64,000 bases of DNA, from NCBI GenBank assembly GCA_006503535.1, contig QYRS01000003.1, positions 372,001-436,000 of the forward strand, given 5' to 3'. The stretch is from Arthrinium phaeospermum. Lineage: Eukaryota; Ascomycota; Sordariomycetes; Amphisphaeriales; Apiosporaceae. The number at the start of each line of letters is the position of its first letter. Positions within the stretch are counted from its first letter, which is position 1. The position numbers and the translations under genes were made by a program. Shown here piece after piece: positions 163 through 63,810 of this stretch. The notes under the pieces are model-generated. The model worked only from the letters and a program-made list of their open reading frames with translations. It was not told where the DNA came from and did no database searches.

Positions 163-2905
163 ATGTCGCAGCATCCTCTCGCCCCTCAACGCTTCAAGCG
201 TCCTCGGAACTGGCTGGTCCCTACCGGGCTCGTCCATGATCTGAACGATCGCCAGCATTGCCGTACTTGTCAGAGGTGCAAGATTGATCGCGAGAGACGC
301 GATCAAGAAAAGGCAAAACGCGTCAAGGCAGAACTTGAAGCAGACAAGAAGCTTCATCAGCACACTGATCCCAACCATCGCGAAAAGTGCAGCACGTGTC
401 AGATCATCTACGACACTTTCGCCTGCCTGAAACTGAAGGAAGCCCATAAAAAGGGCAAGAAAGCTTCACACGAAGCCAACAGTGCATGGACAGCGCCACA
501 GGAAGTTGGATGTAAGTCCAAACCGTTCTTCCACTACGCGGCATCGCCGTTATTCCACGTACATGGTTACTAACTCTGCATTAGTGCGCACCTATCAAGC
601 TTTCCGTGCTCCCAACCCGCCATCTAGTGTGCTGTTCTTGCTACCTGGCCGAGAGTCACCCGTATCGCCTACAAGAACTCCAAGCCCTGAGCCTGTTGTC
701 GCCAGAGTCTCTCGTCCTGCGCCTCGTCGCAAATCAGGAACGAAGCAGAAGCCTTGCAACCGGCGCCCCGTGGCTGGTAACACCTCGAAACAGTCGTCGA
801 GGAAACGACCTATTTGCGATTTTGACCAAACCGGCCCCGAAGTCACACCGCCGCCTTCGGTCAGACGCCGTACTACTCCCAATATCCTTCCACTGGGCAC
901 AAGAACCGGTGAAGGATCCCAGCAAGCGAGAAAGAGGGGCCACAGTGATCTGGTCCAAGACGACGTCGAGTTCGCCCAACCCTCGATTGACATTCCCACA
1001 ATTCCTGGTCAATTCTCGCCTGGACGACCACTCTTTATTCGCGATCCAAAGGTTGCTGTCACTGCAAACCATTCCTCCCAGGGCAACGACAATACATCAC
1101 CCGCTATGAGCGTTTTCGATGCACTCTCAAACCTTGCGGGCAAGGCAATCTGGACCGCTGCTTCGACCATTGGTCGTCAGATCGGCTACACTCCCACAAA
1201 CAATGCCGGTCAGCAGGTCGTTTCCGATGAAACACGTCAGTCTCCTAAGCGGCGACGAACCGACGATACTCCCGCGCCTGCCCTTCTTGATGCACAAATC
1301 GGAGTGAATTCAGACGAAGACATGGGATTGTCTTCCCCGATGAACAATGGTATGGCAAACAATGGCGACAGGCCATTCACGCACTCCTATTCATCCATCG
1401 GTGCCCGAACTCATCTATCCTCGTCCGCTTCCAACGCCGCCCGAAGAGCCCTCTTCCGCTACCCTCCTCGCGCTATCCTGGACCCACGGAGACGCATTCC
1501 TCAACCCCGAACCATGGACCATTCGGAACTTTCTACCGACGATTCCTTGGAGCCCACACGAGACCAAGCCATGCCAGGCAGCTGGGTTTCGGAACCGGAC
1601 GAGCAGAGTTCGACCCAGTCTTCGGATCCATCTACAACAGCGACCTCCCCCAGCACGCAGGAGAAGCACTCCGGCTCTTACAACAAGAGCTCCGCGAAGC
1701 CGGATCCTTACCTATTAAGCACCAGATCGCCTCCGAGATCCGATGCATTCTACACGCGACCCAGAACGCAAGCGAGAGGCGCTTGGGCCAGGAGTCCCCA
1801 GTCCAACCAATCTTCAACCGAAGTCTCTGATTCGACTTCAAGTCCGCCATCAACTAGTTCCGAGCAGCCTGAAGAAACTTCTGCTCAGAATGAAGAGACC
1901 AGCACAACCGACAGATCTGATCCAGAACCAAAGTTCAAGACACGCGCCGACTTCTTCGAACACGATGAGAATTTGCTGGTTCCCGGATTGGAGAAACTGG
2001 GATTGAACGAGTTGAAGAACCAGGAACTTATAGCGCAGAGAGAAGAGCGCCAGCGTCTAGAAAGAGAGAGGCGCATTGCGGCGGAGAAAGCAAAGGAAGA
2101 GGCACGACTTCGTGCGGAGGCAGAGAAATGGAATGCACAACTCAGACACCTTGGGCTGCGCAAACCCAAACGGAAGTGGATCACAGATCTAAGTGAAGAA
2201 TGGGAGCAGAAAGTGGACGACTCGATGACGAGATCCAATGTAACCTGCGCCCCTCCCGAGGCGGTGACGATGACTCCTAGGGACTTCACCAGGATGATAC
2301 CGGATGGCCAATGGCTGAACGACAGCTGCGTCCAGGCCGCCTTGACCGAATTAGCAACAGCCGTCAACAAGTCTGCCGGTCGGGTGTTGAAACAACACAC
2401 ACCAAAGTGTGTCGCTTTGGGCACTTTCTTCTGGACGACTCTCCGTGATAAGGGACCAGAGAACAAGGAAAGGATGATGAAGCGCACTTGGGGCATGACG
2501 CCTCTGAACTTCCTCGACATTGACACGATCATCATGCCCATCAACGAGAGCAGCCATTGGACCTTCATCTTGATCCGCCCAAAGCGCCGCGAGGTCGCTT
2601 ATATCGATTCATTTGGCGGAAACGGAAACCAGAAGGTCGTGAAGGCGCTGGGGTTCATCGAGGTGTTTCTGGGGCCAGCCAGATGGGAACCTAAGGAGTG
2701 GCGAGTTCTCAAGGACCTACATGTGCCAAGCCAGCACAACAGCTGGGACTGCGGCATGTTTGTCATTACCAACTCGATATACATCGCACTTGGCCTCGAC
2801 CCCAACACGTACAGCGAGGCGGAGTTACCTTTGCAGCGAAGGAGAATTGCTGCAGTGCTTCTGAATGGAGGATTCAAGGGCGACTTTAATTTGGAGGATC
2901 TATGA
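163..2905 (+). CDS. Ulp1-like SUMO/ubiquitin-like protease
   Basis: Two exons, 163-511 and 585-2905, give 889 residues. The 73-base intron has a GTAAGT donor, a perfect TACTAAC branch site and a TTAG acceptor. The C-terminal ~210 residues are a C48 (Ulp1/SENP) cysteine-protease domain: the WLND substrate-groove motif, then His in SHWTF, Asp in YIDSF, Gln in PSQHNSWDCGMF and the catalytic Cys in DCGMF. The family removes SUMO or related modifiers from lysines. The N-terminus has a small cysteine cluster (CRTCQRC and CSTC, residues ~28-85) that could bind zinc. The middle is a long Ser/Thr/Pro-rich, presumably disordered region, followed by a basic/acidic helix (residues ~590-650, RAEAEK type). 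The catalytic residues are all present, so activity is expected. Whether the substrate is SUMO or NEDD8 cannot be told. The start is the first in-frame ATG and the only one before the cysteine cluster. Confidence 0.9.
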
Positions 2906-47444: not shown

Positions 47445-50207
47445 ATGGTCACACGAAACGAAACCCCAGGCAATGCCCCGAACAACGACAGGCCCGCTCC
47501 ATCCTTCAACATGCAAGGTGTGAGGCAGGAGCTCTGGTCTGCGACCGATTCCGACACCGACGGAGAGAACATTTGGGGCGACGCAAGACAAACGCAAGAC
47601 ACAACCTCTGCTGCCGCCCAGTCAGCGCCTCGTATTGTCCCCGACTCTTTACGACCTGGCACTGCAACCCAGAACCCGTTCGGCAACGATGCCGGTAACC
47701 CATGGAACGAGGACGACGGACAAGCGAGTGCCCCATCGCAACCCGGGTCAAAAGGCGGGCTAGAACACGTGCCTACAGTCTTGCGGCCAGGCGGCCGATC
47801 AGAGACAAATCCATTTAAGAGGAAGCCTCTGTCATCTACGAATACCGGCCAGAGCGCGGCCAAATCGGCACCCACCGATCCGCCGCCCGCCCCTCCGACG
47901 AATGCCTTCTCTCAGTTGCAACTTAACGAGTCCGAACAAGGCGCAAATCCTTGGAAGCCGGCTGTTGAAGAATCTAAAACATCGCTTGCGCCGCCTCCTG
48001 TCAATTCCATACCGGACCAAGACAGCGGTAACAACGTGTGGGGCTCTGGTGCCCCTTCCAGACAGCCGTCCCCGAACACCCGAGCGCACTCTCCGGCTAT
48101 TGTGTCATTACCGTCGGAAGGCGAGTCTTCGGCTTGGGATGACGATATAGTGGCCAAGCCCACGCTTGGGCATGTGCCGCACAAGTCGCTTGAAGAGCAG
48201 GAGTTTTCGCAAGATTCCCATGTCTGGGACGATCTTGCTCAGCTGGACAAGGGCAAGGCGCCCGCCCACGCGGGACCAAACCAACCAAGATCCGCTGATG
48301 ATTGGAATTTGATAGATCATGACCCACAGCCAGTCAGTCTCTCTAGACAGAGCACTTGGGAGAACTTTGACGAGCCGGAGCCGGAGCCAGAGGTAGAGCC
48401 AAAGCGAGAGCCAGAGAACAAACAAGCAAGACAAGAACAACCAACACAAAAGCCACCAACACCTACAGTTGATGCTATTGAGGTGCCTGCGCCCGCCTTG
48501 CCGCCACGCACCTCCGAGGATGTCCCACCGCCTCAACCGCCACGGACTCAGTCCCCCAGCGCACCAAACAAGAACGAAACATATCAGATCAAGAACATAA
48601 ATTGGCATGATGTGTCCGCGGGTCAAAACCCAAGGAAATCCCCGATTCTCGTTCAGAACGCCAATGGCCCGTGTCCATTGGTCGCCCTCGTGAACGCCCT
48701 GACCTTGACAACTCCGGCCGATTTGACTAACACCGTTTTGGTGGAGACACTACGATCGCGAGAGCAAATCAGCTTGAATCTTTTATTGGAGGCGGTCTTC
48801 GATGAACTGATGTCTCCCAGGAGAACCAAGTCCGACGTAGCGCTGCCCGATGTGAGCGAGCTCTATGCCTTCCTGAAGGGTCTACAGACGGGCATGAACG
48901 TCAACCCGCGATACATTCCTACCCCTGAGCTGATCAATGCTCACAAACGGACGTCCCTTACCCATGTGCATCCGTCTGAGCGAGGCGATCTCATCCCAGG
49001 GACCTTCGAGGATACCCGCGATATGAAGCTGTACGCCACATTTTCCATCCCTCTTATCCATGGCTGGCTTCCGGCCAAAAACGACACCGTGTATGAAGCC
49101 TTTGATCGCCAGGCATCATCATACGACGACGTGCAAAGCCTGCTATTCCACGAGGAAGAACTCGAAGATAAGCTTAGCGCACCGTCGAGCGCAGGACTCA
49201 CGGAACAAGAACAGCAGATGTACCAGGACATCATGAACATCAAAACGTTCCTGGCTACTTCGGCAACCCAGCTGACTCCGTGGGGGTTGGACGTGATAAC
49301 GAAATCCGTACGACCAGGTACATTTTCGATTCTTTTCCGCAACGATCATTTCTCCACACTGTATAGACATCCGCAGACGTTACAGCTCCTGGTGCTCGTG
49401 ACAGATGCAGGCTATCATTCGCATGACGAAGTCGTCTGGGAATCGCTTGTCGACGTCAACGGAGAGCGGGCAGAGTTCTTCTCCGGGGACTTTCGGCTCG
49501 TGGGCGGCCCCCAGCATCAGCAGTCGCTTCAGGAAACTGCTCGGGCTTCGACCAGCGGTAGCCGAGGTCGCCGCAGCACGTCCGACGCGGACAATGTGCC
49601 GGTTTCTCCGACTATTGAGCAAGAAGATCGCGACTTGGCGTTAGCGCTTCAGCTGCAAGAGGAAGAAGACGAGAGGCACCGCACCGAGCAAGCAGCTCGG
49701 CAGCGCGAAAGACAGCTTTCGGAGCAGTTTATTGAACAACAAGGCCGAGGCGGAAACGCTCGCACAGGGCCCCGGGGTAGAGGCGGTAACAGCGTGTCTT
49801 CCTCTCGTGGCGGGTCTACTAGCCAGCTCAACATTCCGGTCCGGGCGAGTAGCAACAGCCTCAACAGCCCCGCTCGGAATGGTAGACCGGCACAGCAGCA
49901 GCAGCCAATTAGACCGCTCGTCCCGCCAGCTAACAACCGGACTCATCGCCCTACCGATGGGGAGGATGATGATGCGCCACCGAGCTACGAACAAGCTTCC
50001 AAGGCTACCCCCTATGTCCCACCGGCTGGACACCCGAGTCACCCCGAGAGTAGCCCGGGTAGCTCCACTCGAGGACGTAGAGGCAATCTCACAGGGGGCC
50101 CGTCCAGGGTCAGCCTCGCTGGGAGCAGCAATGCGGGCCGGGGCAGACCCCCGCCGGTAGCCGCACAGAGCGCCGATGATCGACACAAGGATTGCGCCGT
50201 CATGTAA
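47445..50207 (+). CDS. MINDY-family deubiquitinase (FAM63/Miy1 type) with C-terminal CaaX box
   Basis: Single exon, 920 residues, frame intact. Residues 1-370 are Pro/Ser/Asn-rich and disordered-looking (repeated NPW/NPF patches). The MINDY domain starts at ~385 (YQIKNINWHDV). The catalytic Cys is Cys410 in QNANGPCPLVAL, and the catalytic-His region is FRNDHFSTLYRH. MINDY enzymes trim Lys48-linked ubiquitin chains from their ends. A MIU/UIM-like ubiquitin-binding helix follows (QEDRDLALALQLQEEEDER), then an Arg/Gly/Ser-rich tail. The last four residues are CAVM, a CaaX prenylation box of the farnesyl type (Met at X), implying membrane attachment. The start ATG at 47445 is the first in frame and just precedes the low-complexity region. 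Confidence 0.9.
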   Translation: MVTRNETPGNAPNNDRPAPSFNMQGVRQELWSATDSDTDGENIWGDARQTQDTTSAAAQSAPRIVPDSLRPGTATQNPFGNDAGNPWNEDDGQASAPSQPGSKGGLEHVPTVLRPGGRSETNPFKRKPLSSTNTGQSAAKSAPTDPPPAPPTNAFSQLQLNESEQGANPWKPAVEESKTSLAPPPVNSIPDQDSGNNVWGSGAPSRQPSPNTRAHSPAIVSLPSEGESSAWDDDIVAKPTLGHVPHKSLEEQEFSQDSHVWDDLAQLDKGKAPAHAGPNQPRSADDWNLIDHDPQPVSLSRQSTWENFDEPEPEPEVEPKREPENKQARQEQPTQKPPTPTVDAIEVPAPALPPRTSEDVPPPQPPRTQSPSAPNKNETYQIKNINWHDVSAGQNPRKSPILVQNANGPCPLVALVNALTLTTPADLTNTVLVETLRSREQISLNLLLEAVFDELMSPRRTKSDVALPDVSELYAFLKGLQTGMNVNPRYIPTPELINAHKRTSLTHVHPSERGDLIPGTFEDTRDMKLYATFSIPLIHGWLPAKNDTVYEAFDRQASSYDDVQSLLFHEEELEDKLSAPSSAGLTEQEQQMYQDIMNIKTFLATSATQLTPWGLDVITKSVRPGTFSILFRNDHFSTLYRHPQTLQLLVLVTDAGYHSHDEVVWESLVDVNGERAEFFSGDFRLVGGPQHQQSLQETARASTSGSRGRRSTSDADNVPVSPTIEQEDRDLALALQLQEEEDERHRTEQAARQRERQLSEQFIEQQGRGGNARTGPRGRGGNSVSSSRGGSTSQLNIPVRASSNSLNSPARNGRPAQQQQPIRPLVPPANNRTHRPTDGEDDDAPPSYEQASKATPYVPPAGHPSHPESSPGSSTRGRRGNLTGGPSRVSLAGSSNAGRGRPPPVAAQSADDRHKDCAVM

Positions 50208-51955: not shown

Positions 51956-53769
51956 TCATGCGAACGACGGCTTCAGCGTCCCCGCCCTCCGCTGCGCCAA
52001 CCTCTCCTCCATCAACTCCCCATACACGTGCTCGACCCAGCCACAGACCACGCCCCGCGTATCCGCCGGATCGATAATCTCCTCGACTCCGAACGCATTC
52101 GCCGTCCGCACGGGGTTCATGAGCCCCTCGTACTCCGCCTCCAACTCCCGATACAGCTCGGCCGCCCTCTCTGGCCCCCCTCGCCTCTCGGCCTCGCGCA
52201 GCTCGTGCGCGTGCCCGACCTCGATCCCGCCCTTGAGCGGCAGGGACCCCAGTCGCCGCTGGGCCACGCCACCCGCATCCGCGGGTCCCGGCAGTCGAGC
52301 ATGACCCCGCCCGCGACGCCGTACACCCGGCGCGTGACGACGCTGAAGACGGGCATCGTGGTCGCGTAGTACGCCAGCGCCAGGTTGACGCCGTGCCGCA
52401 TCGTCGCCGCGCGCTCGGCGGCGGTGCCCACCGCGTAGCCGGGGATGTCGACGAACTGCAGGACGGGCAGGTTCATGACGTCGCAGAGCTTGAGGTGGCG
52501 CGTGAGCTTCTGCGAGCCCGCGGCGTCGAGCGCGCCGCCCGTCGCGCTCTCGCAGTTGTTGGAGATGATGCCCACCGGCCGGCCCGCCAGCCGGGCGAGG
52601 CCGACGAGGGCGGTGGTGCCCCAGAGGGCGCCGATCTCGAAGAAGGAGGCGCGGTCGACGACCAGCTGGATGATGCGGCGCGGGTCGTACATGCGCTCTT
52701 TGCGGCGGGGGATGATGGTTCGGAGCGCGGGGTCGCGACGGTCCGGGGGGTCGTCGACGTTTGGGATCACGGGCGGTGCGGAGAAGCCCGAGTTGGGGAG
52801 GTAGCTGAGGACGGTGCGGATCTGTTGGAACGCATGATGCTCGTCAGTGGCGAGGTTGTCAATCGTGCCGTTGCGACAGTGCATGTCCGGGCCCCCGAGC
52901 TCGCTCAGCGTCAGGCCCTCCTCGAACGTGGCCCCCTCGACCACCTTGGGCCCTGCGTTGAAGAGACTGCCGACATTCGCCGCCATGACGCTGAAATGGC
53001 AAACCGTCACGCGCGCGGCTCCCAGTCCGATCGAGGGCCCCAGCGCCGCACCCAGGTTCGGGATTCCCAAGTTGAGCTGCTGGACGACGTGCTGGAACGC
53101 TGGCAGCGGAGGGACGTAGGAGAACCCGTTCTTCCGGATGCTCGTGACGGACCCTCCTCCAGAAGAGCCATCCACCAGCTTCACGATGGGGATTCGCAGC
53201 GAGAGTGCCAGCTTCTCGATGTACTCGGTCTTCTCCCAGAGCGCGCCGTCCGCGTGGCCGGCGCGGAGACTGTAGTCATCCGCCGTGAAGACAATCTTGC
53301 GCCCGTTGAGCTTGCCGAAGCCCTGGACGCTGTTGCTGGGCTTGAAGCCCTCGATGGTCTCCTCCTCTGCCTCACGGAACTGCTGCCCACTGGTGCCGTC
53401 GGCGGCCGGGGGTGGTTTTCGCTTGCCCCATTTCACCTCGCCCGTCACGCTGCCGACCTCTCGGAGACTGCCCTTGTCCAGGAGCGCGTCCACCCGCTCC
53501 CAAACCCACAGCTTGCCGGCCTCCTTCTGGCGCCGGTAGCCGCGGCGTTCTGGATCTGGGGTGCGGGCAAGCTTACGCAGGGTCGCCAGTTGCCCGAGGC
53601 GGTCCGAGTAATCTGCGGGAGGGCCTGATATCGACGCCCTCCTCCGGCCCTTCCGTTTTGGGGCTTTTGATGGTTCACTCTCCTGACGCTCTTTGCTGTT
53701 CAAATGGCCGGCGACCTGTTTCAGCCGGTCGCTTGCCTGCTGCTTGATGTTTTCATCGGCTCCCATCAT
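51956..53769 (-). CDS. Acyl-CoA carboxylase, carboxyltransferase (beta) subunit, with PTS2
   Basis: Read on the minus strand from ATG 53769 to TGA 51956, ~604 residues, no intron. One frame break at CCCC 52247-52250: one more G in the mRNA joins RVAWPSGDWG to SLPLKGGIEVGHAHEL. The fold is the double crotonase carboxyltransferase: N-half KIVFTADDYSLRAGHADGAL, IVKLVDGSSGGGS; C-half GRPVGIISNNCESATGGALD, LPVLQFVDIPGY, GVAGGVML. The subunit moves CO2 from carboxybiotin to an acyl-CoA. Residues 15-23, RLKQVAGHL (bases 53701-53727), match the PTS2 consensus (R/K)(L/V/I)x5(H/Q)(L/A) exactly and sit where PTS2 must, near the N-terminus. The partner subunit starts 583 bases away, divergently. The basic residues 30-45 (KAPKRKGRRR) are unusual. 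The substrate (propionyl-, methylcrotonyl- or geranyl-CoA-like) is not decided by what I can see. Confidence 0.85.
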
Positions 53770-54352
53770 GCCATGCCATGTGTGATGCGAATGAAAGGAC
53801 GAGCAAATACCAACTACACTTACACCTTAGGACTGGATGTGTAGAGGGCTGGCATAACATCCAAGATTTACATACTGATTTTGCGCTTAAGTTGCTTCTT
53901 TTCTCAAGAATCCAACCCCCTCTGGCAGGCTCAGTGGTGGGTGAAGCTTGCAGACCTCGGCAGGCCCCCCAATCGGCAGATCCCCCGCAGTTACCCTGCA
54001 GCGTAGTGGGTTCTCCCCGCCATACCCCGGCTCTAAGGCCACTAAAACGCGGGTGGGGAGTACCTTATGCAGTTCACTACTTCATGTGGCGGTAGTCGCA
54101 TCAATTGATACTTTACTGATGAAATGCTGGGAGACATGTGCCTAAATAAACAAAAAGAAGCAATCTCAATTTACCGGATTGTCCGTCTCTGTTTTGACTG
54201 ATATCCGGTGTTTCAGCGTGGCCTCGATATGGCAGCAGACAATATTTACACGAGATTCTGTGCAGCATAGTTGAATTATTCACCAAAAGTCGAATAAACT
54301 GATTGAGTCGTAGACAGCGCTCTAGAAGAGGTACACGGCCACGATACGCACA
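53770..54352. promoter_or_regulatory. Bidirectional promoter of the two carboxylase subunits
   Basis: 583 bases between the start codons of the carboxyltransferase (-) and the biotin subunit (+). The shared region would let one regulator set both subunits in proportion, as needed for a hetero-oligomer. No specific operator is recognised. Confidence 0.65.
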
Positions 54353-56496
54353 ATGGATCTGCCAGGCCACCCACCGCGGCGGAGGATAAAACGACTTCTC
54401 ATCGCCAACAGGTACGTATCCTTAAAACACCCCTCGACGTCCTTTTGCTCGAGATGTTCTTCCTTAGCTAAGTCCTCACAAGAGGCGAAATCGCCACCCG
54501 CATCCTCCAAGCCGCCCGCGAAGCCCAAATCGAAACCTTCGCCCTCGTGACCGCCAACGACAAGGTCCACGCCCGCCACGCCCGCCGCGTCCTGGAGCTC
54601 CCCTCGCCCAAGTCCTACCTGGACATCGACCTCCTGGTACGTCTGGCCCGGGACCACGGCATCGACGCCGTGCACCCGGGCTACGGCTTCCTCTCGGAGT
54701 CCGCCGAGTTCAGCCGCCGCATGTGGCACGACGCCGGCGCCGTCGTCATCGGCCCCGGCTGGGCGACCCTGGAGCGCACGGGCGACAAGCTGGCCGCGAA
54801 AGCGCTGGCGAGGCGGTGCGGTGTCCCGACGTTGCTGGCGAGCGCTGAGCCCACGGGCCGCGTCGAGGATGTGTTGGCGTTCGCGCGGGGGCGGGCTGGG
54901 GGGCTCCCCATCATGCTGAAGGCCGTTGACGGCGGGGGCGGGAAGGGCATTCGTCTGGTACGGACCGAAGCGGATCTCGAGAGCGCGGCGGCGCGCGCCA
55001 TGGCCGAGAGCCCCTCGCGGCAGATCTTCGTGGAGCGGGCCGCCGTCGATGGGTTTCGCCATGTCGAGGTGCAGATCGTTGGCGACGGGTCGGGGAGGGT
55101 GCGGCACCTGTGGGAGCGCGAGTGCAGCGTCCAGCGGCGGTATCAGAAGGTGGTCGAGATGGCGCCGAGCACCATTAGCAACCGTCAGTTTGTGGCGGCC
55201 ATCATCGATGCCGCGGTCCGCATGGCCGAGGATGTGAAATACATGTCCTTGGGCACGTTCGAGTTCTTGGCAAACCCGGACACGCGCGAGTTCTTTTTCC
55301 TCGAGGTCAACCCGCGGCTCCAGGTCGAACACACCGTCACCGAGTGTATCACGCACGTGGACTTGGTCAAGGCCCAGCTGGAAATCGCGCAAGGTGTCGC
55401 TTTGGACGACGCGCTTCTTCCACTGGCCGCAGGCTTCACATCGTCGTCAATTAATCCAGCCGACCCCCCGCGGCTATCGTCAGTTCAGCTACGTCTGACG
55501 GCCGAAAATGTCCACAATAACTGGTCCATCAGTATCGGCCGCATCACCAACTTCGCGTTGCCGGGCGGCAACGGGGTTCGGGTCGACACCCATCTCGTCC
55601 CCGGGACCCCGACCGTGGTGGCTGCTGACTTTGATAGCTTGCTGGCCAAGATCATCGTCACGGGTGCCTCCTGGAACGACGTGGTGGCCAAGTGTCGGCG
55701 GGCGTTGGAGGATACCCGCATCGATGGGGTCAAGACCAACCTGGACATCCTGCGCGCCATCGTGGCCAGCCCAGACTTTGCCAACGGCGCGTGCGATACT
55801 TCGTGGCTGGAGCGGGAGCTGCCGCGGCTCCTGGAAACGGGCAAGAGGATCTCGGAGGACCTGGTCTCGGCGGCTGCTGATCTAGGCACTCGAGATGACT
55901 CTTCCGTCTCCCCGGCGGTGGCGGGGGGCTCCGGTTCCAGCGTTCTCCTACGCAAAGGCGATGCGTGGGCCCTGAAGCTCACTCCCAAGGCGGATGTCAA
56001 CTCTAAGCAGACCTCGGAACCCCAAGTACATCACCTAAAGCTCTCCCGCGTCCTCCGCAATGAGTTCCCCTCCCTCCTGCGCGCCGAGGTGGAATACTCG
56101 CACCCCAACACCACCACGGATCCTCAGACCTTCCTGCTAGAAGCGGCCAGCAGCACCGCCTCAGCCGGCTCCGTCCTTGCCGAGGGAAAGCACCGCCACG
56201 GCGACGCGGGCGACCCGTCCCATATCGTCGCGCCGTTCCCGGGGAAGCTGGTCGAGGTCCTGGTGGACGAGGGGGACGTCGTGGCGCCGGGCCACGTCGT
56301 CTGCGTCGTGCAGCAGATGAAGATGGAGCTCGAGGTGCGGGCGGCGCGCGGGGGGAGGGTCCGTTGGGTCACCGAGGCCGAGGACGGGGAGGACATTGCC
56401 GAGGGGACCCTCATTGCTGAGTTGGAGGACGTCGAGGTTGCTGCTGTGGGTGTGCCGCTCGGGGGAGGGGAGGGGGCGAGGGTGGCGAAACTGTGA
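54353..56496 (+). CDS. Acyl-CoA carboxylase, biotin carboxylase/biotin carrier (alpha) subunit, ends in PTS1
   Basis: Exons 54353-54411 and 54483-56496 (GTACGT donor, CAAG acceptor), 690 residues, frame intact. The biotin carboxylase domain begins KRLLIANRGEIATRILQAAR. It has the ATP-grasp glycine loop DGGGGKGIRLV, HVEVQIVGDGSG, the catalytic EVNPRLQVEHTVTE, and the C-terminal BC part (RLTAENVHNN, VVAKCRRALEDTRIDGVKTN). The last ~75 residues are a biotinyl domain (APFPGKLVEVLVDEGDVV) with the biotin-accepting Lys in QQMKME. The size and BC-BCCP order equal the alpha subunits of two-subunit acyl-CoA carboxylases, not the ~2200-residue fungal Acc1. The short N-terminus (MDLPGHPPRRRIKR) is not a clear mitochondrial presequence, unlike methylcrotonyl-CoA carboxylase. 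The final residues are ARVAKL: AKL fits the PTS1 consensus [SAC][KRH][LM], so import into peroxisomes is predicted. Confidence 0.9.
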
Positions 56497-56676: not shown

Positions 56677-57775
56677 TCAATTGCCCAGTATCCTTCTTAG
56701 AGTCTCGCTCAATGAGTCCTTTCCCCGTCGGACTCGGGCGCCCTCATTCATGTCCTTCTCCGCGACACCGCCTGGCAAGAAGCTCCTCGTCATCTCCACA
56801 AACAGACTGGCCATCGGCTCCTTGAACGCCTGGCCGAAGAAGCCTTGTAGTTGGTCATCCTGGATCAACTTCACCTCAATATCTTTCCCCGTCGCCTCTT
56901 CGAAAGCCCGCTGCACGTCCCGCGTCGAGTAACTCTCAGGCCCGTGAAGGTCAAAGACGAACGGATTCTCGTCCCCCGGCGTCGCTGACCCGGCCGCCAG
57001 CAGCTGCGCGGCGCAGACCCTGCCAATGTCCCTCACGGATACCATCGGGATCTTGTAGTCAGCAGGCGATATCACCGAGTAGAAGAACGGCGGCTCGGCC
57101 TCCAGTGTCGCGAGCGCCATCGCCCAGTTCTCCATGAAGTACGCGCACCGCACGAAGACCACCTCGGGCGCTGCGCCGAGGAGCGCCTGCTCGGCTTCGT
57201 GGTTCGTCTTGATCTCGCCCTGTAGCGTGCTCGGTAGATAGTCAGTCAGTAACGTTCCATCGCCTAGGTTGTATTGATGCTTGGTTGAGGATTTTCCCGA
57301 AGGTTCAGTCAGGTCAGCATTTAGGGTTGACTGAGATCTCAGATCTCGATCGAGATTGGGATCGAGATCGGGTACTTAAATACCGTGCCATGTTCGAGCT
57401 GAGCTCCCACGCTAGAAATGTAGACAAGCCTCTTTACGGAAGCTCCTCGGGAGGAGGCGGTTATGGCCTGTTTCACGTTGAGCGCCGTCTCGCGGGCCTT
57501 GGCGATGGGTCGGCTTCGTTGTGTAGGGGCGGGGTAATGGTCGCCACGGCGTCGGCGCCTTTGAAGTAGCAGTCGAGCGTGGGCGCGAGGAGGCTTTTGG
57601 CGTCGGCGACGTCGCCTTCGACTGCGGCAAACCGCGGGTTCTGGGTTAGGTCAGCCGGCGCCTTCCGCACGTCCCGGTAGACGCCCGTGACGGTCGGCTC
57701 GGAGGCGTCGGCCAGCAGGGTGCGGATGGTGGCTTGCCCAGTCTTGGGGGATGCGGGGATGACGACGATGCGCAT
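56677..57775 (-). CDS. NmrA-like NAD(P)-binding protein
   Basis: Exons 57775-57384 and 57219-56677, ~311 residues with one base restored. The N-terminus MRIVVIPASPKTGQATIRTL is a Rossmann start in which the usual GATGxxG is replaced by PASPKTGQ. Later parts are RLVYISSVGAQLEHGT, then (after a 164-base intron) GEIKTNHEAEQALL and FVRCAYFMENWAMALATLE, the latter typical of NmrA/HSCARG proteins that sense NAD(P) or act as atypical reductases. One base is missing at GGG 57507-57509, where an added C in the mRNA joins HNEADP to IAKARETALN. The intron is GATC-rich with short inverted words (GAGATCTCAGATCTC). The donor GTATTT is weak, so the border is less certain. It converges on the biotin subunit gene (180 bases between stops) and is divergent from the MFS gene. 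Confidence 0.75.
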
Positions 57776-58978: not shown

Positions 58979-61053
58979 ATGTTTCCAGACAAGCACCACA
59001 GCGAGATGGACATCACCGAGAGTCACGCCGGAGCAAACACCCCTGAGCTCCATCCCAGCTCGCCAGCCTCTCTTAGTGACACTACGCTATACGAGGCCCA
59101 TCCTGGCGAACTGAGTCGCCTGAACGGCGACCTCCCGCGGGCTTTGAAAAGCAAGAAGATTGAAATACGATACCAGGAAGAAGCCGTCCCGGAGACCGAG
59201 GACCATGCCGCCGAGAAGGTCATCGTGTCGTGGGAGGAAGGCGACGAGGAGAACCCGCACAACTGGACTCCTGTAAGCACTTGGACTACTGTTTCTCCCA
59301 ACTATAATCATCGTGTCTGGGCTTTGACTGACTCAAGATGTATCTGCGGCATGACAGACGAAGAGAAGATGGGTTCTCCTCACCACCATGGCTATCATAA
59401 TCAATAGCACCCTGGGCAGCTCCCTGCCGAGCATGGCCATCCCCTATATGGCCCAGGAGTGGGGCGTCACGACCCAAAACCAAATGCCGTTGCCCATCGC
59501 CACGTTTCTGATGGGCTTCGTGCTTGGACCTTTGATGTGTATGTATACTCCACACTCGTCTACGCGCCATGCAGGGACGCCTTGAAAAGGCTAACGCGTG
59601 TTGATTCTCAGGGGGTCCGCTGAGTGAGCAATACGGCAGACGCGTCGTGGTGGTCAGCTCCTTCTCCATGTTCATCGTCTGGACCCTGGCCTGCGCGCTC
59701 GCGCCAAACTGGCACGCCTTTCTGGCCTTCCGGTTTCTGTGCGGCGCGTTTGCCAGCGCACCCATTGCGGCCGTGTCGGGCATCCTGGCCGATGTCTACG
59801 CCGACCCCGTGGCTAGAGGCCGCGCGATGGCGTATTTCATGGCGGTATGTCTTGACCACTCTCTTTAAACCAGCTTTGGGTTAATGAGCTGAGCGGTTTG
59901 CTGACATTCGGGATGGTAGACAACGGTGTTTGGACCCCTTTTCGCCCCCATCATCTCGGTAAGTCGCAGTCATCGGGCCTTAACTCTACCATAGGCTGAG
60001 ACTAACCACGTGCTTATACAGGGCTTTTGTTCCACCTCCGTGGGCTGGCGCTGGTCCTTCTGGATCGCCCTCATCTACGCCGGCTTAACATTCGTTCCGG
60101 TCTTGCTGCTGCCCGAGACCTACGCCCCCGTACTCCTGGCGCGCAAAGCCGCCGCCCTCCGCCGGCGGGACCCCGCGTCTCCCGTCTACGCCGCCTCCGA
60201 GCTCGAGCCCCGCGACCTGAAGCAGCTCGTGACCCAGGTCCTGACGCGGCCCATGCGCATGATCCTGACCGAGCTCATCGTGACGAGCGTCTGTCTGTAC
60301 CTGGCCCTCGTCTACGCCATCTTCTACATGTCCTTCCAGGCCTACCCCCGCATCTTCCAGGGCCTGTACGGCCTGTCCCCCGGCGTCACTGGGCTCTGCT
60401 TCCTGCCCATCGGCGGCGGCTGCTGCTTGGGCCTGCCCATCTTCTTCGGGTACGACCACGTGCTCCGGCGCGCACAGAGGCTAAACAAGGCCTGGGTGCG
60501 GCAGGAGGAGTACCGCCGCGTCCCGCTCGCGTGCCTGGGCGGACCGCTCTTCGTCGTCTCGCTGCTCTGGCTCGGGTGGACGGCGCAGCCGGAGGCGGGG
60601 GTGCCGTTTGCGGTGCCCATGTTGGCGGGGATTCCGTTCGGGATGGGTTGGATGCTCGTGTTTATGGCCCTCATCAACTACCTGACGGACGCGTACGAGC
60701 TGTACGCGGCGAGCGCCAATGCGGCGGCGAGCGCGAGCCGGTCGCTGGTCGCGGTGGTGCTTCCCTTTGCGACGGCGCCGCTGTTCGATCGGCTGGGGAT
60801 CGCGGGGGCTTGTAGTCTGTTGGCGGGGCTGAGCGCGCTGATGTGCGGGATCCCGTTTGTGTTTATTTGGAAGGGGGAGCGGATCCGGGCGGGGTCGCGG
60901 TTCTGTGCCGAGTTGAGGCGGCGCAAGGAGGAGATGGAGAGACAGGCCGAGGAGGAGGCGAGGAGGTGGCGGACCCGGAGGAGTGGGAATGGGGCCGGGG
61001 TTGCTGTGCCGGAGAAGGTCAAGGTGAAGGTGGTTGGCCGGGAGGATGTTTGA
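58979..61053 (+). CDS. MFS transporter, DHA1 (H+ antiporter, 12-TM) family
   Basis: Five exons: 58979-59272, 59358-59538, 59612-59844, 59920-59958 and 60022-61053; all GT/AG in consistent phase, 592 residues. A ~110-residue acidic cytosolic N-terminus ends in EGDEENPHNWTPTKRRW, the usual DPxNPxNW entry to TM1. TM1 is LLTTMAIIINSTLGSSLPS. Motif A between TM2 and TM3 is WGPLSEQYGRR, the DHA1 signature, and TM5 (GFCSTSVGWRWSFWI) has the family's GWRW. Twelve hydrophobic segments follow, then a charged C-tail (RRRKEEMERQAEEEARR). The family exports drugs, secondary metabolites or organic acids in exchange for protons at the plasma or vacuolar membrane. Next to the carboxylase and aminotransferase genes it may carry a substrate or product of the cluster. 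The frame is intact. Confidence 0.9.
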
Positions 61054-61916: not shown

Positions 61917-63810
61917 ATGAGCAAACCAACATTTCGCGGCGATCTCGGCGATCTAGCCGGCGCCCTCCCGCTTGCCGTCCAAGGCACCGGCAAGGACGAC
62001 TATGCCGGGCTTTACATAGAGGTTGAGGACCCCAAGAAAGGGACCACCGAGAATGTTCTCGACATGTGCGGAGGCGCCGCGGTAGCGTGCCTCGGCAACG
62101 GCAGAACCAAATACACAGAGAAAGTGCTGGACGCCATGCGGGACCAGAACAACAAGATTTCGTACGCAGCGCACGGTTTCTACAGCTCAGGCCCCGCTCG
62201 AGACCTGGCGAACCGTTTGCTTCAGGATGCCAATGGGCCATTGAAACCAGGCAGCGACGAGGAGCTGACTCATGCCATGGTTCTCAGTTCCGGTATGCAG
62301 AGACATCTATCTGGACTTTGGTTCGTCTCGCGCGTGCTAAGGGTGCTGACGAACGTGTACAGGATCGGAGATTAACGAGACGGCCATCAAACTGGTGCGG
62401 CAGTACTGGTACCGGAAGGCGGAAGAAGCGGAGAAAGCAAAGAAGCCGGTTGGGAAGCGAGACATCATTCTCTCGAGATACTCGTCGTACCATGGCAACA
62501 CCCTGGCCGCACTCAGCATGAGCGAGTTTCCCATCCGGCAGCATATCTTCGAGAGCATCCTAGACAAGGAGCACTTCAAGAAGGTCGGGCGCTTCTATCC
62601 CTACCGGGACGGTGGGGATAGAGACGACGAGCAATACACCCGAGACCTACTGGACGAGCTCAAACAAACGATTAATATCTATGGCACCAGAGTTGCGGCT
62701 TTCATACTTGAACCGGTATCCGGAGCTGTATGTATCCCCTCGTATCGTCGCAGACCCTTCTCCATTTAGCTGACAATACAAGTAGGCTCTCGGCTGCCAG
62801 CCTGCATCGCTCAAATATTTTCAAGAAGTCAAGAAGATTTGCGTCGAAAAGGGAATCCTATTGATCTACGATGAGGTCATGTGTGGCATTGGCCGTACCG
62901 GATACATTAATGCCTGGCACTACTACAATCAGGAAACCAAGTCCAAAGCGGCATTTGACCCGGCCAATGGATTTGTGTCGGTGGCCCCTGACATGCTGAC
63001 GGTTGCCAAAGGCCTCGGCGGAGGCTTTACCCAAGTCTCAGCCATTCTGGCCAACAAGAAAGTCGCAAGCCAGATCAGGTGAGCTTCCCGTCCCTGCCGT
63101 CACTGATAGTACTACATTTACTGGGTCACTCACATTCTGCTATCAGGGGATGGAAGAGGCCCGACGAAGTGGTGGAGCCCGGCAGGCAGAGAGAGCCCGG
63201 CGTCGGCGAGTTCATCCACGGCCACACCTACCAGTCCCACCTGGGTGCATGTGCCGCCGCCCTGGCCGTCCAACAGACGATCCATGGCCAGCTTCCCAAC
63301 GTCCGGACACAGGGGGAGCGGATCGGACGACGCCTGCAGGCTCTGGTGGCGCAGCACCCCAACGTGGGCGACGTCCGCGGCCGCGGCCTCTTCTGGGGCG
63401 TCGAGTTCGTCAAGGACAAGGCGGCCGGAAAGCCCCACGCCGCGCGCGAGTTCTTCGACTACGACGTCGCCAGCAAGCTGGCCCTGTTCGGCCGCACCGA
63501 GAAGTTCCGCAAGGGGCTCAACGCCGTCGACAAGCAACGGTTCGCCGCCACGGCGTCGCCTCTGACCGTGTACCCGGGGTCTTGGAAGATGATCGATGAC
63601 GTTTCGAACTTGGTCAAGGACCACCGGGACGGGCGAAGTCCTCGGAAGCTTGGGGCCGAAGAAGTTACTACGGGTTACCATGTCATCATCGCCCCGGCGT
63701 TCTACGTGACCGGGGCGGTCGTGGAGGAGATGATGGATAAGTTCTTCGAGGTGGTTAACCGATACTTCAAGGACGTGCACGGGACTGAGGAGGTTACTTG
63801 GAAGGCGTGA
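61917..63810 (+). CDS. Class III (omega) aminotransferase, PLP-dependent
   Basis: Four exons: 61917-62292, 62363-62727, 62786-63078 and 63147-63810; GT/AG borders and phase agree, 565 residues. Fold-type I, class III features: LDMCGGAAVACLGN (substrate entry), SSGSEINETAIKL, SSYHGNTLAALSMSE, EPVSGAALGCQPA, the PLP-ring Asp in LLIYDEVMCGIGRTG, the Schiff-base Lys in LTVAKGLGGGFT, and HGHTYQSHLGACAAAL. The family moves amino groups between omega-amino acids, or diamines and keto-acceptors; the substrate is not decided here. It is longer than the usual ~450-480 residues because of extra segments before the C-terminal VYPGS and IIAPAF elements (residues ~445-525). There is no targeting signal at the C-terminus (TWKA). 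It is the last gene of the possible cluster, on the same strand as the MFS gene. Confidence 0.9.

Follow-up and report, generated by a model that had tools for sequence, protein, structure and literature searches.

A predicted two-subunit acyl-CoA carboxylase with conserved peroxisomal signals of different type in filamentous fungi

Results

A divergent carboxylase gene pair

A 64,000-nucleotide stretch of the Arthrinium phaeospermum genome (contig QYRS01000003.1, positions 372,001 to 436,000; here called the window), from a 48 Mb assembly in 19 contigs, carries two divergently transcribed genes for the subunits of a predicted biotin-dependent acyl-CoA carboxylase. One encodes the carboxyltransferase (CT, or beta) subunit, which has a peroxisomal targeting signal of type 2 (PTS2) near its N-terminus. 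The other encodes the biotin-bearing alpha subunit, which ends in a peroxisomal targeting signal of type 1 (PTS1). Both signals lie exactly where an earlier sequence-only reading of the window had placed them. The features of the pair, in window positions, are the following.

51956..53769, minus strand: CT (beta, carboxyltransferase) gene; Pfam Carboxyl_trans, 5.7e-69; frame broken near 52250-52270 in the assembly
53701..53727, minus strand: PTS2 RLKQVAGHL, CT residues 15-23; bases read off the open reading frame starting at 53769
51956..52267, minus strand: CT C-terminal segment, read in a different frame and ending LKPSFA; the ends of relatives are similar
53770..54352, no strand: intergenic region of 583 bases between the divergent CT and alpha genes
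54353..54411, plus strand: alpha (biotin subunit) exon 1, MDLPGHPPRRRIKRLLIAN..; from the sole open splice combination tried; resembles the N-termini of relatives
54412..54482, plus strand: alpha intron, 71 nt, GT..AG
54483..56496, plus strand: alpha exon 2, with biotin carboxylase, BT-like linker and biotin carrier (QQMKMELEV); from Pfam and the AlphaFold model of the relative P0121
56485..56493, plus strand: PTS1 AKL at the alpha C-terminus; stop codon at 56494-56496

The alpha subunit contains the Pfam domains Biotin_carb_N, CPSase_L_D2 (ATP-binding), Biotin_carb_C and Biotin_lipoyl. The 649-residue open reading frame at 54547 is incomplete. Adding the 59-nt exon 1 and the 71-nt intron, the one open combination among two donors and five acceptors tried, gives a protein of 690 residues that starts MDLPGHPPRRRIKRLLIANRGEIATRI. 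The biotin site QMKMEL is invariant in 20 aligned alpha rows. In the AlphaFold model of P0121, a helix (459-484) and then strands (514-578) lie between the biotin carboxylase and biotin carrier domains, where a BT domain would be expected. Judged by its domains, the pair is a two-subunit biotin-dependent acyl-CoA carboxylase with the CT partner encoded nearby. Among the matches listed, the nearest named protein relatives of both subunits belong to Apiospora (Sordariomycetes).

The CT frame is interrupted. The 550-residue open reading frame runs out into unrelated sequence, and the ~100 conserved C-terminal residues sit in a second frame, the gene matching its relatives at 52213-53742 (71% identity to P0059) and at 51962-52252 (65% to P0059). 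Close relatives have ~600 residues, 42 of 120 CT relatives share the SFA ending, and the full-length relative P0001 (599 residues) is 91% identical across 100% of the query. An intron in place of the break was considered by eye and rejected, as the candidate splice would delete conserved residues. The coordinates of the motifs in the sequence-only reading stand, but its gene models missed both this break and alpha exon 1. The break may be a sequencing error or a recent loss, two origins that look alike in the assembly. That the pair is decaying in this strain, with the break real and the enzyme lost here, is unlikely. The break itself and the single close CT copy in the genome (the next match being 28% identical) would fit such a loss, whereas the two CT pieces retain their identity to P0059, the alpha gene is fully open and P0001 is full length.

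A PTS2 on the carboxyltransferase

We compared the CT with the best 120 of 2362 matches and the alpha subunit with the best 120 of 956; the members of both samples are mutually related and non-random. The family motif R[LVIMA]xQ[VIL]xx[HQ], sought in the first 60 residues, is present in 113 of the 120 CT relatives, and a loose PTS2 pattern that also allows M at position 2 is present in 111. The CT motif exceeds chance expectation: shuffling the N-terminal 60-mers yields the family motif in 0.06% of cases and a loose PTS2, here without M at position 2, in 3.1%. Of the seven misses, four are models that begin downstream of the segment (P0008, P0013, P0039 and P0077), and in P0095 the segment is cut. 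P0103 has K in place of Q and is otherwise PTS2-like, and P0011 has D in place of H.

The motif stands out from its surroundings. An alignment of 21 CT rows, the window's own and those of 20 relatives, shows R15 and Q18 in every row and H22 in all but one. Outside the motif, by contrast, 33 of the 41 positions before residue 51 lack a residue shared by more than half of the rows. Other conserved spots in this extension include A12 (19/21 rows) and a basic patch at residues 39-43 (window numbering), between the PTS2 and the catalytic domain. In the AlphaFold model of P0001, the PTS2 lies within a helix (7-23) modelled with low to moderate confidence, which leads into a linker of low confidence. 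Neither the PTS2 motif nor the loose PTS2 occurs upstream of the conserved GKL in any of 80 bacterial CT loci, where 6 to 90 residues per locus (median 52) were checked. The window's RLKQVAGHL fits the strict PTS2 consensus. The N-terminal 40 residues of Histoplasma Pot1, which include the PTS2 RLSQVTSHL, brought about Pex7-dependent import of a protein into peroxisomes, according to the accessible text of PMC13343957.

A PTS1 on the biotin subunit

A C-terminal [KRHL]L is found in 117 of the 120 best alpha relatives, against 1.5% expected from the composition of their last 60 residues. By tripeptide, 72 are canonical [SACP][KRH]L, 22 are other KL or RL ends, 23 are xLL and three are others (P0167, P0169 and P0190), which look like wrong gene models. 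In the AlphaFold model of P0121, the PTS1 lies beyond the carrier domain on a tail modelled with low confidence, with a predicted local distance difference test score (pLDDT) below 50 at 675-689. AKL, the tripeptide in the window, forms together with SKL and ARL the commonest Pex5-dependent tripeptides in Histoplasma, as far as PMC13343957 could be consulted.

One group of relatives (among P0137-P0166, mainly Xylaria and Nemania) has turned the alpha C-terminus into ALL, PLL or SLL. Acceptance of such ends by Pex5 in those fungi would be a ready measure of receptor co-evolution.

The two signals are conserved together

The sequence-only reading had proposed different peroxisomal signals on two partners and had set their joint conservation in orthologues as a check beforehand. 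We paired CT and alpha relatives found on contigs of equal size, which gave 42 pairs. Locus tags are consecutive, by eye, in 13 of these (numbered in tens in one). With a PTS2 pattern that also accepts K for Q, both signals are kept in 39 of the 42 pairs, 26 of these with a [KRH]L end. The three exceptions are a truncated CT model (P0077) and aberrant alpha ends (P0190 and P0169), and no orthologues lacking both signals, the outcome that would have contradicted the sequence-only reading, turned up. The signals are also specific to their subunits. No CT relative (0/120) has a [KRHL]L end and no alpha relative (0/120) has the PTS2 motif. As a further control, we took the mitochondrial 3-methylcrotonyl-CoA carboxylase (MCC) alpha of related fungi, in which PTS2 and canonical PTS1 are each found in 0 of 120 proteins. 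Two of the 120 end in [KRHL]L, both as QKL, and 19 end in LVV, possibly because their models are cut. The prediction of two different signals withstands this check. Pairs with both signals include Apiospora (Sordariomycetes) and Alternaria (Dothideomycetes), and CTs with PTS2 occur in Botrytis tulipae (Leotiomycetes) and Coniocarpon (Arthoniomycetes), whose alphas are outside the 120 listed. Our data support joint conservation of two signals of different type in Sordariomycetes and Dothideomycetes at least.

These counts bear on the idea that the enzyme is cytosolic or dually placed, its signals being weak or conditional, which we regard as quite unlikely. The non-standard alpha ends (xLL in 23 and ERL/NRL-like in 22 of 120) and the I or V at PTS2 position 9 speak for it, as does the only partial import of Histoplasma CatP, which ends in PRL (PMC13343957, accessible text). 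Two different signals on two partners are, however, kept together in 39/42 pairs, and this retention counts against their being useless, because signals without function should erode, as most of the CT extension has.

N-termini and other carboxylases of the genome

A mitochondrial enzyme, propionyl-CoA carboxylase (PCC) or MCC, would agree with source names such as 'propionyl-CoA carboxylase beta chain, mitochondrial', with the ACC/PCC-type fold described below and with the rather basic alpha N-termini. We consider it highly improbable. An in-frame stop lies 20 codons upstream of the CT start and another 10 codons upstream of the alpha start, with no Met between in either case, so a missed presequence, which the sequence-only reading had named as evidence that would overturn its proposal, is absent from the contiguous upstream frames. 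The CT N-terminus is acidic by comparison, with a mean of 3.38 acidic residues in the first 25 against 0.03 in MCC alpha. In the alpha subunit, the motif RGEI starts at a median of 18.5 (counted from 0; 108/120 with the motif) versus 38 in MCC alpha (120/120); therefore, there is little room for a mitochondrial presequence. In addition, the tree places the CT apart from the PCC and MCC sets, and the genome holds what reads as an MCC-type pair of its own. By reading, its other biotin carboxylase loci are MCC alpha, pyruvate carboxylase, Acc1 and a urea-carboxylase type, and its other CT domains are of MCC beta type and Acc1. The genome gives no match to methylmalonyl-CoA mutase, in a search whose control was positive in 8 of 14 genomes.

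Enzyme class and substrate

The CT has an ACC/PCC-like fold. With the CT family profile, an acetyl-CoA carboxylase (ACC) beta chain scores 270 bits and the best PCC beta 262, against 131-174 for MCC-type beta entries and 138 for geranyl-CoA carboxylase (GCC) beta. The best 50 Foldseek matches are ACC/PCC-type beta chains; transcarboxylase 12S and carboxylases of the alkylmalonyl- and long-chain acyl-CoA types are among them. The 50 VIA matches listed include no MCC or GCC beta chain, an absence that carries no weight on its own. The fungal CTs (14 rows) form a single group in the tree (support 100/100), the PCC set (4 rows) is separate (100/100) and the MCC set (6 rows) falls on one side of a branch, apart from the fungal CTs (99/99). 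The fungal rows also lie away from the GCC-like and MCC rows, the GCC-like set not being a single clade. One row each of PCC, MCC and GCC-like was identified via solved structures and the rest by tree position. The sequence-only reading had proposed a phylogeny of both subunits with MCC, PCC, GCC and bacterial Acc; in our trees the CT falls outside the sampled PCC, MCC and GCC-like rows. The join of fungal CTs and their bacterial neighbours has a Shimodaira-Hasegawa-like approximate likelihood ratio (SH-aLRT) support of 89, below threshold, and the 47-row set that excludes PCC, MCC and GCC-like rows has 99.

These placements do not favour the earlier suggestion of a geranyl-CoA or isoprenoid substrate. 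Fungal beta-oxidation takes place in peroxisomes, and at one related plasmid locus in bacteria the CT is adjoined by genes for thiolase, CoA-transferase, SDR and MaoC; both would suit a peroxisomal enzyme that carboxylates geranyl-CoA or another acyl-CoA at the gamma carbon, in the use of branched isoprenoid acids. Such an enzyme is very unlikely, and geranyl-CoA as substrate is not supported, because the CT is outside the MCC and GCC-like rows and the CT family profile scores 138 bits with GCC beta against 270 with an ACC beta. Methylmalonyl-CoA, also raised earlier as a product, is an unlikely intermediate on the way to succinyl-CoA. The position of ScPccB D422, linked to propionyl-CoA preference in the part of PMC7835884 available, is Gly488 in the CT and invariant in 21 fungal rows. 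Together with the lack of a methylmalonyl-CoA mutase match in the genome, this makes a route from propionyl-CoA to succinyl-CoA unlikely. From fold and lineage (PMC4673880), carboxylation would most likely occur at the alpha carbon of the acyl-CoA. Our guess for the substrate is a branched acyl-CoA, or acyl-CoAs over a broad range of chain lengths, metabolised alongside beta-oxidation.

For bacterial relatives, a first genome scan with the fungal alignment alone found none, and a second one, using a mixed alignment headed by Tistrella, gave 487 matches, of which the best 80 were used. The two annotated plasmid regions differ from each other and three regions are without annotated features. A crude clustering of 926 open reading frames from the 80 loci gave a CT cluster in 51 loci and a cluster in 17 loci whose representative is antisense to the CT. 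No further cluster occurs in more than 7 of the 80 loci; therefore, we read no substrate from the bacterial context. On two Cupriavidus plasmids (L015, 7854-15358; L012, 11959-19454), a CT relative stands beside a fused biotin carboxylase-carboxyltransferase of ~1130 residues and a long CoA-transferase-like reading frame (names by reading), together a putative carboxylase set. A link to peroxisomal biotin synthesis was also considered and dropped, since nothing in the accessible part of PMC3713238 or in our results connects the enzyme with pimeloyl-CoA.

Neighbouring genes

A MINDY deubiquitinase gene adjoins the pair (47445-50207, plus strand; PF04424, 1.4e-74). Beyond the alpha gene are pieces of an NAD(P)-binding protein (57473-57775, minus strand; below the Pfam cut-off) and of an MFS transporter (60010-61053, plus strand). 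Elsewhere in the window are a Ulp1-type peptidase domain (482-2905, plus strand) and a class-III aminotransferase piece (63079-63810, plus strand).

Discussion

Our data suggest that the pair encodes a biotin-dependent acyl-CoA carboxylase of two subunits that resides in the peroxisomal matrix, a prediction to which we give a probability of roughly 0.8. The central proposal of the sequence-only reading is sound and now stands on stronger ground than that reading could offer: the comparisons support a predicted, well-conserved new location for a known kind of enzyme. The alpha subunit, with its biotin carboxylase, BT-like domain and biotin carrier, would be imported by Pex5 through its C-terminal PTS1, and the CT by Pex7 through its N-terminal PTS2. 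Biotinylation of alpha would probably take place in the cytosol and precede import. In the matrix, alpha would carboxylate its own biotin with bicarbonate and ATP, and the CT would hand the carboxyl group to an acyl-CoA, yielding malonyl-CoA or a substituted malonyl-CoA. One signal per subunit would suit import first and then assembly of a very large holoenzyme. We lean towards the wider view that many Pezizomycotina have a peroxisomal biotin-dependent carboxylase, and with it a matrix pool of malonyl-type CoA ester that the organelle is not known to contain, the subunits entering via different receptors and assembling only inside.

Several observations weigh against this interpretation. The peroxisomal location and the carboxylase activity are both predictions, the assembly has an interrupted CT reading frame, and the 120 relatives listed for each subunit are the best, interrelated matches and no random sample. 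The strict PTS2 consensus fits just 29 of the 120 CT relatives, mainly because position 9 is often I (51) or V (22), and P0011, in which D replaces H, is a full-length CT. On the alpha side, the xLL ends (23/120, mostly Xylaria and Nemania by name) and the ends ERL, NRL or similar (22/120) fall outside the Histoplasma PTS1 consensus as given in the accessible text of PMC13343957. The alpha N-termini are rather basic, with 5.04 basic and 1.43 acidic residues in the first 25, and for this reason cannot by themselves exclude a presequence. An I at the end of the PTS2 also occurs in the same genome at the thiolase locus L129 (RLQQISGQI), taken as the thiolase N-terminus by reading; a scan that required a nearby Met gave only RIGSILKHL at L131, and a wider scan revealed that of L129.

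If the peroxisomal carboxylase is confirmed, fungal peroxisomes carry out biotin-dependent carboxylation, an extra pathway in an organelle viewed mainly as oxidative. This would raise the questions of how ATP and bicarbonate are supplied, what role a malonyl-type product has, and whether biotinylation comes before import or not. The pair would also be a natural two-receptor enzyme for asking whether large complexes form before or after import. In addition, the records that name these proteins mitochondrial propionyl-CoA carboxylase would be wrong on location and probably on substrate.

We know of no peroxisomal biotin carboxylase in any organism. No fungal peroxisomal acyl-CoA or biotin carboxylase was found among the top-ranked matches in the openly accessible literature, searched by titles and the openings of abstracts. 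The word 'carboxylase' is absent from the accessible part of PMC10782954. Acyl-CoA carboxylases of fungi and some green algae were already listed among those of eukaryotes in 2011 in the accessible text of PMC3199775, in whose main text 'peroxisom' does not occur. The endogenously biotinylated proteins of Histoplasma named in the available sections of PMC13343957 are pyruvate carboxylase and methylcrotonyl-CoA carboxylase.

Among known systems, PCC is likewise built from alpha and beta subunits. It carries mitochondrial signals, in contrast to the peroxisomal signals of the window pair, and differs from it by the position of the CT outside the PCC set and by Gly488 in place of ScPccB Asp 422. 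The mitochondrial MCC of the same fungi is also a two-subunit biotin carboxylase, but is encoded at separate loci in the genome, and its alpha has no PTS2 and only two QKL ends among 120. GCC, another two-subunit acyl-CoA carboxylase, is more distant by tree and by profile score; two carboxylase lineages are described in PMC4673880, as far as its text could be consulted. The nearest non-fungal relatives found are bacterial CTs of uncharacterised function (Tistrella, Sneathiella, Cupriavidus and others), which are 36-43% identical. Those aligned share the stretch WPS..WG.LP with the fungal CTs, and the bacterial loci differ from them in lacking a PTS2 upstream of GKL.

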